Below, in pieces: positions 2 to 4,622 of a stretch of DNA of 12,881 nt. The DNA comes from Candidatus Roizmanbacteria bacterium CG10_big_fil_rev_8_21_14_0_10_45_7 (GTDB lineage: Bacteria > Patescibacteriota > Microgenomatia > UBA1406), in NCBI GenBank assembly GCA_002793745.1, contig PFEE01000031.1:1-12881 (forward strand), written 5' to 3'. A model generated the notes under the pieces. That model searched no databases, was not told where the DNA came from, and saw nothing but the letters and a program-made list of their open reading frames with translations. The translations under genes were made by a program, and so were the position numbers. Position 1 is the stretch's first letter; every line of letters starts with the position of its first letter.

Positions 2-568
2 GCAGAAGTAGTAAATCCAAATATTATTAGACCGGATTACTTAAAGACATTTGATGGCTTTTTTATTAATGGAGAGCCGAAGATGTTTCGTGGGAATATT
101 CCAGATTGGCTTTCAATTGTTTTGAATACTGATCAAGTTTTTCCACGCTGGCGGCCATCGCTAGATAAAAAAACAAATTTAGTTTGGGCATCAGGGCAAA
201 GTAGTCTATTTGCACCAACAAATTTACTTTCTGCAGAAGGAATAGTGCAAGGAAACGGACAAAGGCTGGTAGTAAAAGGTAATGGATTTTCTTCTAATAA
301 TGTATTTGTTCAACCATCACCAGAAGACATGGACTACTTGTTGGGGTTAAACGGCGACTATGTGGTTCAGCCGTACCTTGAATCTGCACCCATAGATCCT
401 GTTTTTGTTTTAGATACATCAACGAACCGTGTACGATATTTGCAAAGTCCCCGCTCTAAATGGAATGTGTGGATTGTCAATAATCAGGTTGTTGGTTCTA
501 TGCTTTCTGTTTCAAACACCGATGTGATCAGCGATAAGGATTTTAATAGTATACCTAAGGAAAAATAA
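2..568 (+). CDS. ATP-grasp-like protein, C-terminal part (5' truncated by window edge)
   Basis: The reading frame is open from base 2, upstream of the internal ATG at 83, so the gene very probably begins outside the window; 188 codons are visible before TAA at 566-568. The visible part fits the C-terminal half of an ATP-grasp fold: a beta strand with a lysine and glycine-rich loop (VVKGNGFSSNN, about visible residues 90-100), a hinge-like strand with a glutamine (DYVVQPYL), then a late strand pair with a Val-Val-Gly turn and a Ser-Asn-Thr-Asp stretch where metal ligands usually sit. Family assignment rests on this pattern only; substrate and product are unknown. The gene is AT-rich. Its stop overlaps the next start by one base, so the two are probably one translation-coupled operon. 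Confidence 0.45.
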   Translation, partial: AEVVNPNIIRPDYLKTFDGFFINGEPKMFRGNIPDWLSIVLNTDQVFPRWRPSLDKKTNLVWASGQSSLFAPTNLLSAEGIVQGNGQRLVVKGNGFSSNNVFVQPSPEDMDYLLGLNGDYVVQPYLESAPIDPVFVLDTSTNRVRYLQSPRSKWNVWIVNNQVVGSMLSVSNTDVISDKDFNSIPKEK

Positions 569-942
569 TGAAAAAAATAATAATTTTTGATTTTGCCGGA
601 ACCTTAGTCTGTATGAGGCCGGTAAAGTTATTAGTGCCGTATCTGTTATTAGCGATACTGTCAAAGTTTTTTGTACTAGGCATTATTACCGGAGCCAATA
701 GAAGAAACACGATGCGCATACTTAATAAAGTTGGCATTGCTAACTTCTTTTCTGATAAGGCAATCATAACCAAAGATGATGTCTCTTACAGCAAACCAGA
801 TATCCGATTAATTAACTTTTTCGCTCGTAGACTCAGTAGCAAAGAAATATTTTTATATGTAGGTGACAGTGACAAAGATTTTAAAATGGCAAAACGCTAT
901 GGAGTAAATTTTTTGTGCTATAATTCTGTTAATGGAACATAA
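568..942 (+). CDS. small capless HAD-superfamily protein
   Basis: This is a 124-residue protein. The start ATG at 568 overlaps the previous stop by one base and has a good Shine-Dalgarno (AAGGA, 557-561), rare in this window. HAD motif I is DFAGTLV (D8 nucleophile, T12), motif II a Thr at 41, motif III Lys76 in SKPD, and motif IV GDSDKDF (D100, D104). There is little room for a cap domain between motifs I and II, so it is a bare core. The usual second acidic residue of motif I, the general acid/base, is alanine (A10). Phosphonoacetaldehyde hydrolases also have Ala there, but this protein is much shorter and lacks their cap. Phosphatase activity is therefore uncertain; substrate unknown. Residues 20-40 are hydrophobic. 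Base composition is AT-rich like the gene before it. The last codons overlap the leader peptide start by 11 bases. Confidence 0.75.
   Translation: MKKIIIFDFAGTLVCMRPVKLLVPYLLLAILSKFFVLGIITGANRRNTMRILNKVGIANFFSDKAIITKDDVSYSKPDIRLINFFARRLSSKEIFLYVGDSDKDFKMAKRYGVNFLCYNSVNGT
916..924 (+). promoter_or_regulatory. extended -10 promoter for the tyrA leader
   Basis: TGCTATAAT is a perfect extended -10 element inside the 3' end of the HAD gene. No convincing -35 was seen 17 bases upstream. Transcription would start near 931, one base before the leader-peptide ATG at 932, matching the short -10-to-ATG spacing of other genes in this window. It could be a chance match inside coding sequence, but its position directly before the leader peptide supports it. 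Confidence 0.55.
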
Positions 943-982
943 CGGAAACAACTTGGTAAGCTTTTATTTTTATACTCCGTAG
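932..982 (+). CDS. tyrA leader peptide with Phe-Tyr-Phe-Tyr regulatory codons
   Basis: This 16-codon reading frame encodes MEHNGNNLVSFYFYTP and ends at TAG (980-982). Four consecutive aromatic codons (TTT TAT TTT TAT, 962-973) lie just before the stop, and the next gene makes tyrosine. The Thr-Pro codons form segment 1 of the downstream attenuator, and the stop codon lies in the loop of the 1:2 hairpin. Phe/Tyr-rich leader peptides are established attenuation devices (the enterobacterial pheA leader is one). There is no Shine-Dalgarno; the frame starts about one base after the predicted transcription start, so leaderless initiation is assumed. Expression is not proven, but codon content, position and geometry agree. 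Confidence 0.7.
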   Translation: MEHNGNNLVSFYFYTP

Positions 983-1043
983 AGCGGGGTGTATTGTAGT
1001 GTTCTAAAACTACAGCGCTCCGCGAAAGCGGAGTTATTTTTTT
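974..1043 (+). promoter_or_regulatory. tyrosine/phenylalanine transcription attenuator upstream of tyrA
   Basis: Four segments give three competing pairings. 1:2 is 974-979 (ACTCCG) with 985-990 (CGGGGT), 6 pairs around the leader stop codon. 2:3 (antiterminator) is 984-992 with 1015-1023, 9 pairs including 3 G-U, continued after a two-base bulge (993-994) by 995-1000 with 1009-1014, 6 pairs. 3:4 (terminator) is 1018-1023 with 1028-1033. A ribosome stalled with Tyr codon 971-973 in its A site would cover to about 983, masking segment 1 and freeing segment 2, so the antiterminator forms. A ribosome at the stop codon would cover to about 992 and hide segment 2, so the terminator forms. Without translation 1:2 forms and the terminator wins. 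This is the logic of the trp and pheA attenuators. Pairings were found by eye; energies were not computed. Confidence 0.7.
1018..1043 (+). terminator. intrinsic terminator of the tyrA attenuator
   Basis: A perfect CTCCGC/GCGGAG stem with a GAAA (GNRA-type) loop is followed by TTATTTTTTT. The T-run ends exactly at the tyrA ATG, leaving no room for a promoter between terminator and gene. tyrA must therefore be transcribed through this terminator, which argues for conditional termination rather than a simple end signal for the HAD gene. The GGAG at 1030-1033 in the 3' arm could also serve as a distant Shine-Dalgarno. Confidence 0.85.
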
Positions 1044-1814
1044 ATGAGAAACATGAATCAAAAACCAACCATAACCATCGTCGGATTTGGGAGATTCGGG
1101 CAAACGCTGTGCCGACTATTGGATGGCGAGTGCACGATCCATATTTTGACGGCTCACCCTAAAAAAATTAAGCCAGAGCAGTTGCCTGGCAACTGCAGTG
1201 TTGTGGTCAGCATAAAAGAAGGATTAATGAGTGATGTTATTTTTTACTGCGTACCCATTCGAGATTTTAAAAAGGTATTGGCAAGTCATAAAAAATATTT
1301 AAAACAGCAATTATTAATAGATGTGTTATCGGTCAAGTTGCATGCACAGCAGGTGTTTGCGCAGGTATTGAAAGGCACCAATGCGCGAGCATTATTAACC
1401 CACCCCATGTTTGGGCCCGACAGTTCAAAAGAAGGATTTGCCCATTTGCGTATTGTTATGAATCGGTTTATGGCAACCGAAGACGAGTATGAGTTTTGGA
1501 AAACGATATTTATAAAAAAAGGATTAACCATTATTGAAATGGACGCTGATACCCATGACCGGTTGGCAGCCCGATCACAAGGTGTTGCTCATTTAGTGGG
1601 TCGTAGCCTGGCTCAGTTTGGCATGCAGGAAACACCGATCGATACGAAGGGCTCGAAATTATTGTTGGAGTTGATGGAACAAACGTGTCATGATTCGTGG
1701 GAATTATTTGAAGATATGCAAACCAAAAATCCGTATGCAAAAAAAATGCGCAAGGATATGTATAAAGCGATGCAGGCAGTATTTTCCTATTTTAAGTTCG
1801 ACCCGGGGGGTTGA
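1044..1814 (+). CDS. tyrA: TyrA-family prephenate/arogenate dehydrogenase
   Basis: This 256-residue cytoplasmic enzyme would catalyse NAD(P)-dependent oxidative decarboxylation of prephenate or arogenate, the late step to tyrosine. The N-terminal Rossmann domain has GFGRFG (14-19) after a beta strand. The family motif HPMFGP is at 120-125. The helical dimerisation domain carries the DADTHD segment (167-172) with Gln179 and His183. No chorismate mutase or ACT domain is present. The choice between prephenate and arogenate, and NAD or NADP, cannot be made from the sequence. ATG 1044 directly follows the terminator T-run; ATG 1053 (codon 4) is a close alternative and also precedes the Rossmann strand. 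It ends in an aromatic tail (VFSYFKFDPGG) that may act as a leader for the next gene. Regulation is most likely by the upstream attenuator. Confidence 0.93.
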   Translation: MRNMNQKPTITIVGFGRFGQTLCRLLDGECTIHILTAHPKKIKPEQLPGNCSVVVSIKEGLMSDVIFYCVPIRDFKKVLASHKKYLKQQLLIDVLSVKLHAQQVFAQVLKGTNARALLTHPMFGPDSSKEGFAHLRIVMNRFMATEDEYEFWKTIFIKKGLTIIEMDADTHDRLAARSQGVAHLVGRSLAQFGMQETPIDTKGSKLLLELMEQTCHDSWELFEDMQTKNPYAKKMRKDMYKAMQAVFSYFKFDPGG

Positions 1815-1866
1815 TGTGAGATAACGACTATCTCGCACATCTCCCCCCGCAAAAAAAACGGGGGGA
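1804..1866 (+). promoter_or_regulatory. possible second attenuator using the tyrA 3' end as leader
   Basis: CGGGGGG at 1804-1810, inside the last codons of tyrA, can pair with CCCCCCG at 1843-1849. This encloses an 11-bp hairpin (1813-1823 with 1829-1841, one bulged G at 1835). The rod would sequester the 5' arm of the terminator at 1842-1866. A ribosome reaching the tyrA stop (1812-1814) would block it and let the terminator form. One stalled at Tyr1788 or Phe1791 codons would leave 1804-1810 free. This is an inference from competing pairings; the poly-G/poly-C tracts could also be incidental. Confidence 0.4.
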
Positions 1867-1873
1867 TTTTTAT
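1842..1873 (+). terminator. intrinsic terminator between tyrA and DAHP synthase
   Basis: An 8-bp perfect stem, TCCCCCCG (1842-1849) with CGGGGGGA (1859-1866), has a C plus eight-A loop and is followed by TTTTTATTAT. It lies between two genes of the same pathway and strand, 29 bases before the DAHP synthase ATG. It either fully ends tyrA transcription or is regulated. A weak TATTAT (1871-1876) could give the downstream gene its own promoter, but no -35 was found. Confidence 0.85.
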
Positions 1874-2771: not shown

Positions 2772-4622
2772 TTACGCGCGTATTTTCATGATGGTTTCAA
2801 AGGCTTCTTGATCAAGGTTTTCTTTTTTAAGAAGCGCTTGTGCAACGGCAGTCAGCTTAGCTTTATGCTTGGCCAGGGTTTTTTTTGCCTGTGTGTAGCC
2901 ATCATTAAGGATACGTGCAACTTCCTTGTCAATTTTTGCCAGCAGCTCCTGTGAAACCTGACTCTCACCGCCGTGGATCCAGCTGGTGATGTCCATCATG
3001 TCATTAATAGCTATGGGACCCAGCGCGCTCATGCCGTAATTGGTAACCATGGCGCGGGCAATGGCCGTGGCTTGATTGAAGTCGTTTGCAGCGCCCGTGG
3101 TGGCCTCGTTAAACATGAGTTCTTCAGCCGCCCTGCCGCCCAGTATGGTGGCAATTTGTTCTATAAGCCTGGTTTTCGTTTCATGGATAAGATCATGTAT
3201 TGGAGGAATAAGCGTGTGTCCCAGCGACATACCGCGGGCAACAATGGAAATACGATGCACGGGGTCCATATGGGGCATGGCGTAGGAAACAATGGCATGG
3301 CCCGCTTCATGATACGCCGTTATTTTTTTATCAGCTTCGGTTTGTACCCGTTTCTTCTCTGGGCCCAGCTTCACTTTTGTAGCGGCTTCTTCAACCATTT
3401 CAGCATCGATACTGGTTTTGTTTTGGCGCGCAGCAAGAATAGCGGCTTCATTAAGCATATTTTCAAGATCCGCCCCCGAGTAGCCAACGGTTCGTTTGGC
3501 AATACGATCCCATTGTACCGAACCATCAAACGGTTTTCCTTTGGCGTGTAGTTTAAGAATCGCTTCGCGCTCTTCTATGTCGGGATAGCTGACGGTAATG
3601 CGGCGGTCAAAGCGACCTGGGCGCATGAGTGCCGAATCAAGCAGATCTCCTCGGTTCGTGGCGCCAATGACGACTACCTTTTGGGTGGGTTCAAATCCGT
3701 CCATCTCAACGAGTATTTGGTTAAGTGTCTGTTCCCGTTCATCATGCCCTCCTACCAGTCCGGTTGAACGAGCTCGTCCTATGGCGTCAATTTCATCGAT
3801 AAAAATAATGGCAGGGGCGTTTAATTTTGCTGTTTTAAATAGGTCGCGTACGCGTGCCGCTCCGATACCCACGAGCATTTCCATAAATTCCGATCCGGCT
3901 ATGGAATAAAAAGGCACATTAGCCTCACCGGCAATGGCTTTGGCGAGAAGCGTTTTTCCGCAACCCGCTGGACCAACTAAGAGAACGCCCTTGGGAGTGC
4001 GCGCTCCCAGGCGGGTATATTTATCGGGAAACTTCAAGAAATCAACCACTTCCTGTAGCTCTTCTTTTGCTTCCTTAATGCCGGCAACATCGTTGAAGGT
4101 AATACGTGAGGTTCCTTTTTGAAAACGCTTGGCGCGTGACTGTCCAAATGAGAAGATAGAATCTTGCGCTCCTCGTGCCTGGCGGAACAGGTATATAAAG
4201 AATGCGATCATAAGCACATAGGGAACGCTGTTGACAAATACATTGATCCAGAAGGCCATTTGATCAAAATTTTTGGTTTGAATCTGTACTGATAATGGAT
4301 TAATACCGGCGTCTTTTAATAGGGTAAAGATGTTGCTGTTTGATTCTTTCCCGGCAGTAGCTACTACATCAGAATTTTTGTAATACGCCTTAATTTCAGT
4401 ATCGGCAACCTCGAGTTTTTTAATTTTGCCTTGCTTAACATCGGTTAATACCTGCGAAATGGCTTTTTCGGGCGTGTTTTTTTTACTCTGTTTGTCAAGT
4501 CCTGCGGGGATGAATGAGAGTATGAAAAAAACAGAGAGCAGTATGAAAAATATGGTTTGGAAATTAAAACGGATTTGGAAACGTTTACCAAGTTGTTTGC
4601 CGTTTTGCTTTTGTTGTTTCAT
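2772..4622 (-). CDS. ftsH: ATP-dependent zinc metalloprotease FtsH
   Basis: This 616-residue membrane protease would form a hexamer that extracts and degrades membrane and regulatory proteins. Order: short basic N-terminus, membrane helix (about 22-40), small extracytoplasmic domain, second helix (about 128-147), AAA+ module, M41 peptidase. Walker A is GPAGCGKT (217-224), with Ala-Gly-Cys in place of the usual Pro-Gly-Thr. Walker B is IIFIDEID (D276, E277). The pore loop is FMEML (246-250). The arginine-finger region is MRPGRFDRR (R337, R340). The zinc site is HEAGH (438-442) with D514 as the probable third ligand. An upstream in-frame ATG at 4664 would add 14 residues, but a perfect extended -10 lies inside that extension, so ATG 4622 (KQQKQNGK start) is chosen. 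It is divergent from the RHH-nucleotidyltransferase gene. Confidence 0.95.

Follow-up and report, generated by a model that had tools for sequence, protein, structure and literature searches.

This locus raises the question of whether a member of the CPR (Patescibacteria), bacteria that are usually described as biosynthetically poor, controls its own synthesis of aromatic amino acids by transcription attenuation. The window, by which we mean the complete stretch of 12,881 nucleotides that was analysed, is contig PFEE01000031.1 from Candidatus Roizmanbacteria bacterium CG10_big_fil_rev_8_21_14_0_10_45_7, and the region of interest (916-1043) directly precedes a gene for prephenate dehydrogenase, tyrA. 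A first-pass annotation, made from the letters alone, had described a complete Phe/Tyr-dependent attenuator in this region and had taken the host to be CPR-like. The genus, Candidatus Roizmanbacteria, does belong to the CPR.

Anatomy, conservation and computed behaviour of the tyrA leader

Direct reading of the sequence confirmed all elements that had been annotated at 916-1043, together with their coordinates (Table 1), and the three competing pairings all pair as described. The terminator pairing 1018-1023:1028-1033 is present, and the T-run T1037-1043 adjoins the tyrA start codon at 1044. The first-pass annotation had missed the placement of the -10 box 7 nt from the leader ATG and a second candidate attenuator at the 3' end of tyrA. 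Beyond their Pfam assignments, tyrA matches the NCBIfam prephenate dehydrogenase models with scores below their cut-offs, and the NCBIfam DAHP synthase models are the best for 1895-2770, yet they also stay below their cut-offs.

Table 1. Features of the tyrA leader, of the genes behind it and of the candidate second attenuator in the window.
Feature	Coordinates	Strand	Basis or remark
Extended -10 promoter element TGCTATAAT	916..924	+	Sequence; ends 7 nt before leader ATG
Leader peptide frame MEHNGNNLVSFYFYTP and stop, 16 codons	932..982 (ATG 932, TAG 980-982)	+	Aromatic codons 962-973
Pause / anti-antiterminator hairpin, 974-979:985-990	974..990	+	P about 1.0 in nascent RNA ending at 1012
Antiterminator 984-992:1015-1023 (including G-U pairs), extended by 995-1000:1009-1014	984..1023	+	Folding
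Intrinsic terminator, GCTCCGC-GAAA-GCGGAGT-like stem and T-run up to the tyrA ATG	1017..1043	+	Folding, terminator prediction
tyrA, prephenate dehydrogenase, 256 aa, without fused prephenate dehydratase	1044..1814	+	Pfam PF02153 above cut-off
DAHP synthase (3-deoxy-7-phosphoheptulonate synthase), divergent PF00793	1895..2770	+	Pfam above cut-off
Candidate embedded leader, tyrA C-terminal codons FSYFKFDPGG and stop	1782..1814	+	Kept in G001
Candidate pause hairpin UCGACCC:GGGUUGA	1798..1814	+	Fold of 1700-1820
Candidate antiterminator CGGGGGG 1804-1810 : CCCCCCG 1843-1849, inner hairpin between	1804..1849	+	Computed pairing
Terminator TCCCCCCGCAAAAAAAACGGGGGGA and TTTTT before DAHP synthase	1842..1871	+	Folding, sister species

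A comparison of the region with related genomes, which had been proposed as a check, was possible with one sister species: G001, a second species of Ca. Roizmanbacteria, is the only relative from the same genus among the 77 genomes searched. The leader frame of G001, MARQEALFVSFYFYTP, likewise has 16 codons, and the aromatic codons and hairpins are kept, although the upstream genes differ (HAD-like in the window, an M20-family peptidase in G001). All 78 bases from 956 to 1033 are identical in the two species, followed by one inserted base in the tail. The tyrA genes are 82.6% identical in their DNA, no identical stretch being longer than 38 bases, and at that rate a run of 78 bases is expected by chance with a probability of about 3e-7; the DAHP synthase genes share 80.3%, with a longest run of 33. 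The start of the leader has diverged, as only 11 of its first 22 bases match. The -10 box of G001, TGGTATCAT, again lies 7 nt before the ATG, and both species have TGnTATNAT. The upstream ORF of the window (568-942) matches the HAD_2 profile (178 positions) only over 88-176 and is possibly truncated.

The region 931-1043 folds with z = -4.0, and none of 200 shuffles folded as well. The annotated logic, in which a ribosome stalled at the aromatic codons frees the antiterminator and one at the stop codon restores the terminator, was borne out when the terminator probability was computed codon by codon, assuming that the RNA is free from 12 nt past the start of the P-site codon. This probability is 0.00-0.03 with the ribosomal A-site at F962, Y965, F968 or Y971 and 0.01 at T974, and it rises to 0.79-0.99 at P977 and to 0.92-1.00 at the stop codon. 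The computed boundary between the two states thus lies one codon behind the last aromatic codon. In the calculation terminator and antiterminator are mutually exclusive, and the position of the ribosome decides between them. When the intervening sequence was shuffled 30 times, only one shuffle held the 5' arm of the terminator upstream equally well with a stalled ribosome. The naked leader without a ribosome folds as the antiterminator (0.93, computed), a point to bear in mind as regards basal control.

We consider it very likely that ribosome-mediated transcription attenuation takes place at 916-1043 in response to charged Phe/Tyr-tRNA, and that it sets the flow of polymerase to tyrA and DAHP synthase. 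This reading has direct support from the anatomy, its conservation, the computed switch and the finding that aromatic leaders stand before aromatic-pathway genes elsewhere in the CPR too; the start site, leader translation, stalling and termination at 916-1043 are predicted. The transcript would begin at the leader ATG (932) or right next to it, and the mRNA would be leaderless or almost so. When Tyr or Phe is scarce, the ribosome would wait at 962-973 and leave the strand 984-992 free, which would trap the 5' arm of the terminator (1015-1023), and polymerase would read into tyrA. When Tyr and Phe are plentiful, the ribosome would run on to Pro977 and the stop codon at 980 and cover 984-988, and the terminator at 1017-1034 would form.

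Aromatic leaders in other Patescibacteria

The aromatic attenuator before tyrA is no isolated case. TyrA relatives were scanned in GTDB contigs, and among the best 80 of 109 loci two further CPR tyrA leaders show the same anatomy with dissimilar sequence. In one of them (L082, Roizmanbacteria W9) the leader MTLLNPTNYYLYPVACGEGI is located at about 2893-2955, the T-run ends at the tyrA ATG, and the switch test was passed. The other (L043, WWE3) precedes a fusion of TyrA with prephenate dehydratase and failed the switch test (0.67 versus 0.62 in shuffles). At 15 of the 25 other TyrA loci listed (L004-L028) TyrA runs into a further domain, which it does not in the window; in both cases that were checked (L004, L043) this domain is prephenate dehydratase. 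Outside the CPR, a Marinimicrobia locus (L091, 2284-2343) has the leader MKTSYYYFRYATDGLEDCP in front of what reads as a prephenate dehydratase gene, and it failed under the switch criterion.

A scan of 125 locus records revealed long runs of Phe and Tyr, sometimes with Trp, in front of terminators (e.g. MKRILVLNFYFYFYPI), and many of these runs precede genes that read like DAHP synthase. To keep the choice of loci free of hand-picking, the genomes of the class to which the window belongs were searched for DAHP synthase, and a leader was counted where 4 or more of 6 residues are aromatic and a terminator is present. PF00793 is matched in 32 of the 280 genomes of this class, and among 29 class PF00793 loci run under this one rule a leader was found at 23. 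Two of the six class loci without a leader (L145, L151) are cut off by the contig edge. L126 codes for an AroFGH-type DAHP synthase and has no leader under the rule. At L153 the DAHP synthase lies behind a kinase-like gene, and a further stretch revealed the leader before the kinase gene. Two candidates were rejected as DAHP synthase loci, as L133 codes for KDO8P synthase and L154, by reading, for a carboxypeptidase. Five further stretches of the class were analysed; the leader stands directly before DAHP synthase in G317 and G037, and G211 is cut by the contig end. In G005 and G033 the leaders MSNFGLVTKKFYFYFYPTKRGEIF and MNKKISIIKFFFFYPPFFGAFF precede a PfkB-type kinase gene ahead of DAHP synthase (the kinase of G033 being assigned by reading).

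Counted by genome, 28 of the 32 are testable when the window's own genome, one false match (G105) and two loci cut by the contig end (G006, G211) are set aside. An aromatic leader with terminator before DAHP synthase or its operon is found in 27 of these 28, in 25 of them directly before DAHP synthase and in two (G005, G033) before the kinase-DAHP synthase pair. The exception, G235, has an AroFGH-type DAHP synthase without a leader. If these leaders act as charged-tRNA sensors, nearly every testable genome of the class would have one in front of the gene for the first shikimate step or in front of its operon, and carriers of the gene would meter DAHP synthase with an RNA device that needs no protein regulator. 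In a sample of the phylum, PF00793 is matched in 41 of 380 genomes, and outside the class a leader was found at 16 of 44 candidate DAHP synthase loci, several of them with only 4 aromatic residues in 6. At the loci L201 and L231 the order is aromatic leader, PfkB-type kinase gene and DAHP synthase. Four loci (L114, L116, L052, L054) carry two aromatic leader-terminator units in series before a single DAHP synthase-like gene.

The switch was also computed for a set of 57 leaders. An aromatic run and a terminator had been the grounds for including them, so that independent evidence comes from the antiterminator test alone. When the ribosome was stalled, the 5' arm of the terminator was paired upstream with a mean of 0.89, compared to 0.57 in shuffles, and for 40 of the 57 no more than 1 of 30 shuffles reached this upstream pairing. 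Under the switch criterion 44 of the leaders passed and 13, including L043, failed. Under a stricter equilibrium criterion 14 of 32 leaders passed (the row for L082 in that set was mis-framed and is to be disregarded), and equilibrium folding as the sole test is too strict. One candidate, L033, reached a terminator probability of only 0.62 at the stop codon and was left out of the set of 57 and of the start-signal set described below.

Leader translation in general, as affected for example by a shortage of initiation or by antibiotic stalling, might govern termination in place of Phe/Tyr supply, and in the calculation any stall from 962 to 974 does lead to antitermination. We regard this as very unlikely because the residues at the stall site fit the pathway: they are aromatic before DAHP synthase and tyrA and Leu-rich before an HMGL-like synthase (L040), and under the same rule none of the 27 hisG loci of the phylum has an aromatic leader, some of them having His-rich leaders instead. 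Still less probable is that the hairpin is the ordinary terminator of the upstream HAD-like ORF and that the FYFY frame arose by chance in T-rich DNA. That ORF stops at 942, within the leader, and the terminator at 1017-1043 is a good intrinsic one, but this reading is rejected on account of the sister species, in which the leader and hairpins follow another gene. The antiterminator pairing also exceeds that of shuffles, and frames that pass the rule of 4 aromatic residues in 6 are found near 25 of 53 DAHP synthase terminators of the class loci, in contrast to only 1 of 33 other terminators. Among 190 residue pairs FY ranks first (23 loci), followed by FL (13), which owes its rank partly to a shifted reading of the same DNA. 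A T-box or riboswitch, that is a tRNA- or metabolite-binding leader with an untranslated short frame, is the least credible alternative, for although T-boxes act on tyrosine genes of other bacteria according to the available part of PMC1262725, no Rfam family, T-box included, reaches its gathering score in the window and none besides tRNAs at ten related loci, the weak Rfam matches (E 0.64-2.1) belong to unrelated families, and conservation is centred on codons and hairpins.

Leader starts and comparison with known attenuators

The leader before tyrA would probably be translated from a leaderless or nearly leaderless transcript, as judged from its start signals. Its Shine-Dalgarno run is only 3, and the -10 box has the same distance from the ATG in both species. 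We scored 51 leaders for start signals, with L024 (near the edge) and L130 (no ATG) left out and L022, in which the upstream region is cut, counted as a miss. A -10-like hexamer with a score of at least 5 is found 4-14 nt from the ATG in 38 of the 51, compared to 20% of shuffles and 27 of 224 ordinary ORF starts, the latter being mechanical ORFs of which some are spurious. Lowering the hexamer score to 4 reduces the contrast (45 of 51 leaders, 50% of shuffles). A Shine-Dalgarno run of at least 4 occurs in 2 of the 51 leaders versus 50 of the 224 ordinary starts. As most leaders lack a Shine-Dalgarno sequence and have a -10 box just before the ATG, they look leaderless. The second leaders of the tandem pairs at L052, L054, L114 and L116 have Shine-Dalgarno runs of 3, 4, 6 and 5.

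Leaderless mRNA in CPR was not reported in the literature examined for it, and the leaders may represent dozens of natural candidates for leaderless translation. In uncultured lineages, their signature may also help to locate start sites as well as regulated operons. The pheL, trpL and pheST leaders of Escherichia coli have Shine-Dalgarno sites, and E. coli tyrA is controlled by TyrR. The leader peptide of ilvBNC from Corynebacterium glutamicum is reportedly formed without a ribosome binding site (Morbach 2000); it resembles most of the leaders described here, which would be translated without a Shine-Dalgarno sequence, and differs in its branched-chain amino acids. Another parallel is trpL (rnTrpL) of Sinorhizobium meliloti, where, as far as the accessible part of PMC7298713 goes, the transcript starts at the leader ATG, as predicted here, whereas the target is the trp operon and the host an alphaproteobacterium.

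The mechanism of attenuation is classical and already known. Cognate leader codons and competing RNA pairings are likewise used by E. coli pheA (pheL), trp (trpL) and pheST, according to the available sections of PMC11802643. The nearest published relative in logic that we found appears to be the aroR-aroF attenuator of C. glutamicum, which involves a Phe-Tyr-Phe leader peptide and ribosome stalling (Neshat et al. 2014, as cited in those sections of PMC11802643); the aroF leader is also covered in the accessible part of PMC4046766. As far as these excerpts describe it, aroR-aroF shares with the window the aromatic leader peptide, ribosome stalling (predicted for the window) and a downstream DAHP synthase, while it belongs to another phylum, is a single leader and lacks tyrA as first target, DAHP synthase being the second target in the window. 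Relative to the Phe-Tyr-Phe described there, many of the CPR runs extend further, and Trp is present in some. The first-pass annotation had known of no leader-peptide attenuator from a CPR-like genome, and we found no report for Patescibacteria/CPR in the open-licence literature, where absence is no proof.

The genome of the window has 634 kb and is 80% complete, that of G001 is 87% complete, and in neither of these two genomes of the genus were chorismate synthase and a CM_2 mutase found; PDT was not found in the window's own genome at its 80% completeness. The probable attenuator before tyrA and the recurrence of such leaders in relatives suggest that supposedly dependent CPR cells may tune their own amino-acid synthesis.

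A candidate second attenuator and leaders of other composition

Between tyrA and the DAHP synthase gene of the window there is a second arrangement of this kind, in which the aromatic C-terminal codons of tyrA take the place of the leader (Table 1). The tyrA tail, the inner hairpin and the C6/G6 terminator all occur in G001 as well, where the inner hairpin shows some changes, and a tail of the FSYFKFDPGG type is absent from the other TyrA tails listed (25 loci). The tail resembles the DAHP synthase leaders NFYFYFDPPCGGCNC (L120) and LYFYFDPKPGGDCC (L054), and its FDP and GG may be forced by RNA pairing. With the ribosome at F1782 to K1794, the antiterminator has a computed probability of about 0.99 before strand 4 has been made; at equilibrium, the complete terminator wins at most ribosome positions. 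The evidence is weaker than for the attenuator at 916-1043, and we lean only slightly towards a serial second attenuator that guards DAHP synthase with the tyrA tail as its leader.

Leader codons embedded in an upstream gene seem to recur, as hinted at by His-rich tails at hisG loci. Whether leaderless attenuators specific for an amino acid are a general control of amino-acid synthesis in Patescibacteria, with aromatic leaders at DAHP synthase and tyrA, Leu/Ile- and His-rich ones at other genes, serial copies, and leader codons sometimes within an upstream C-terminus as in tyrA of the window, is in our judgement evenly balanced. If it is true, FSYFKFDPGG at the end of tyrA would represent a leader peptide that an enzyme has captured.

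Runs of other composition were noted at several loci. At L205, L207 and L214 a His-rich run forms part of the C-terminal tail of an ORF that resembles Trp repressor, before a terminator upstream of hisG; the ORF of L205 is PF01371 by Pfam, and those of L207 and L214 were assigned by reading. His-rich codon runs also precede terminators at the hisG loci L217, L225 and L206. Leu/Ile/Val-rich leaders occur before terminators at L040 (stops at 4418, 4997 and 6570), L085, L035 and L019, examples being MSKQRAQIIIEIIIASPKGGLLR and a peptide ending in LLGLLLLALLLGAFLGRSF, of which the latter precedes an HMGL-like synthase.
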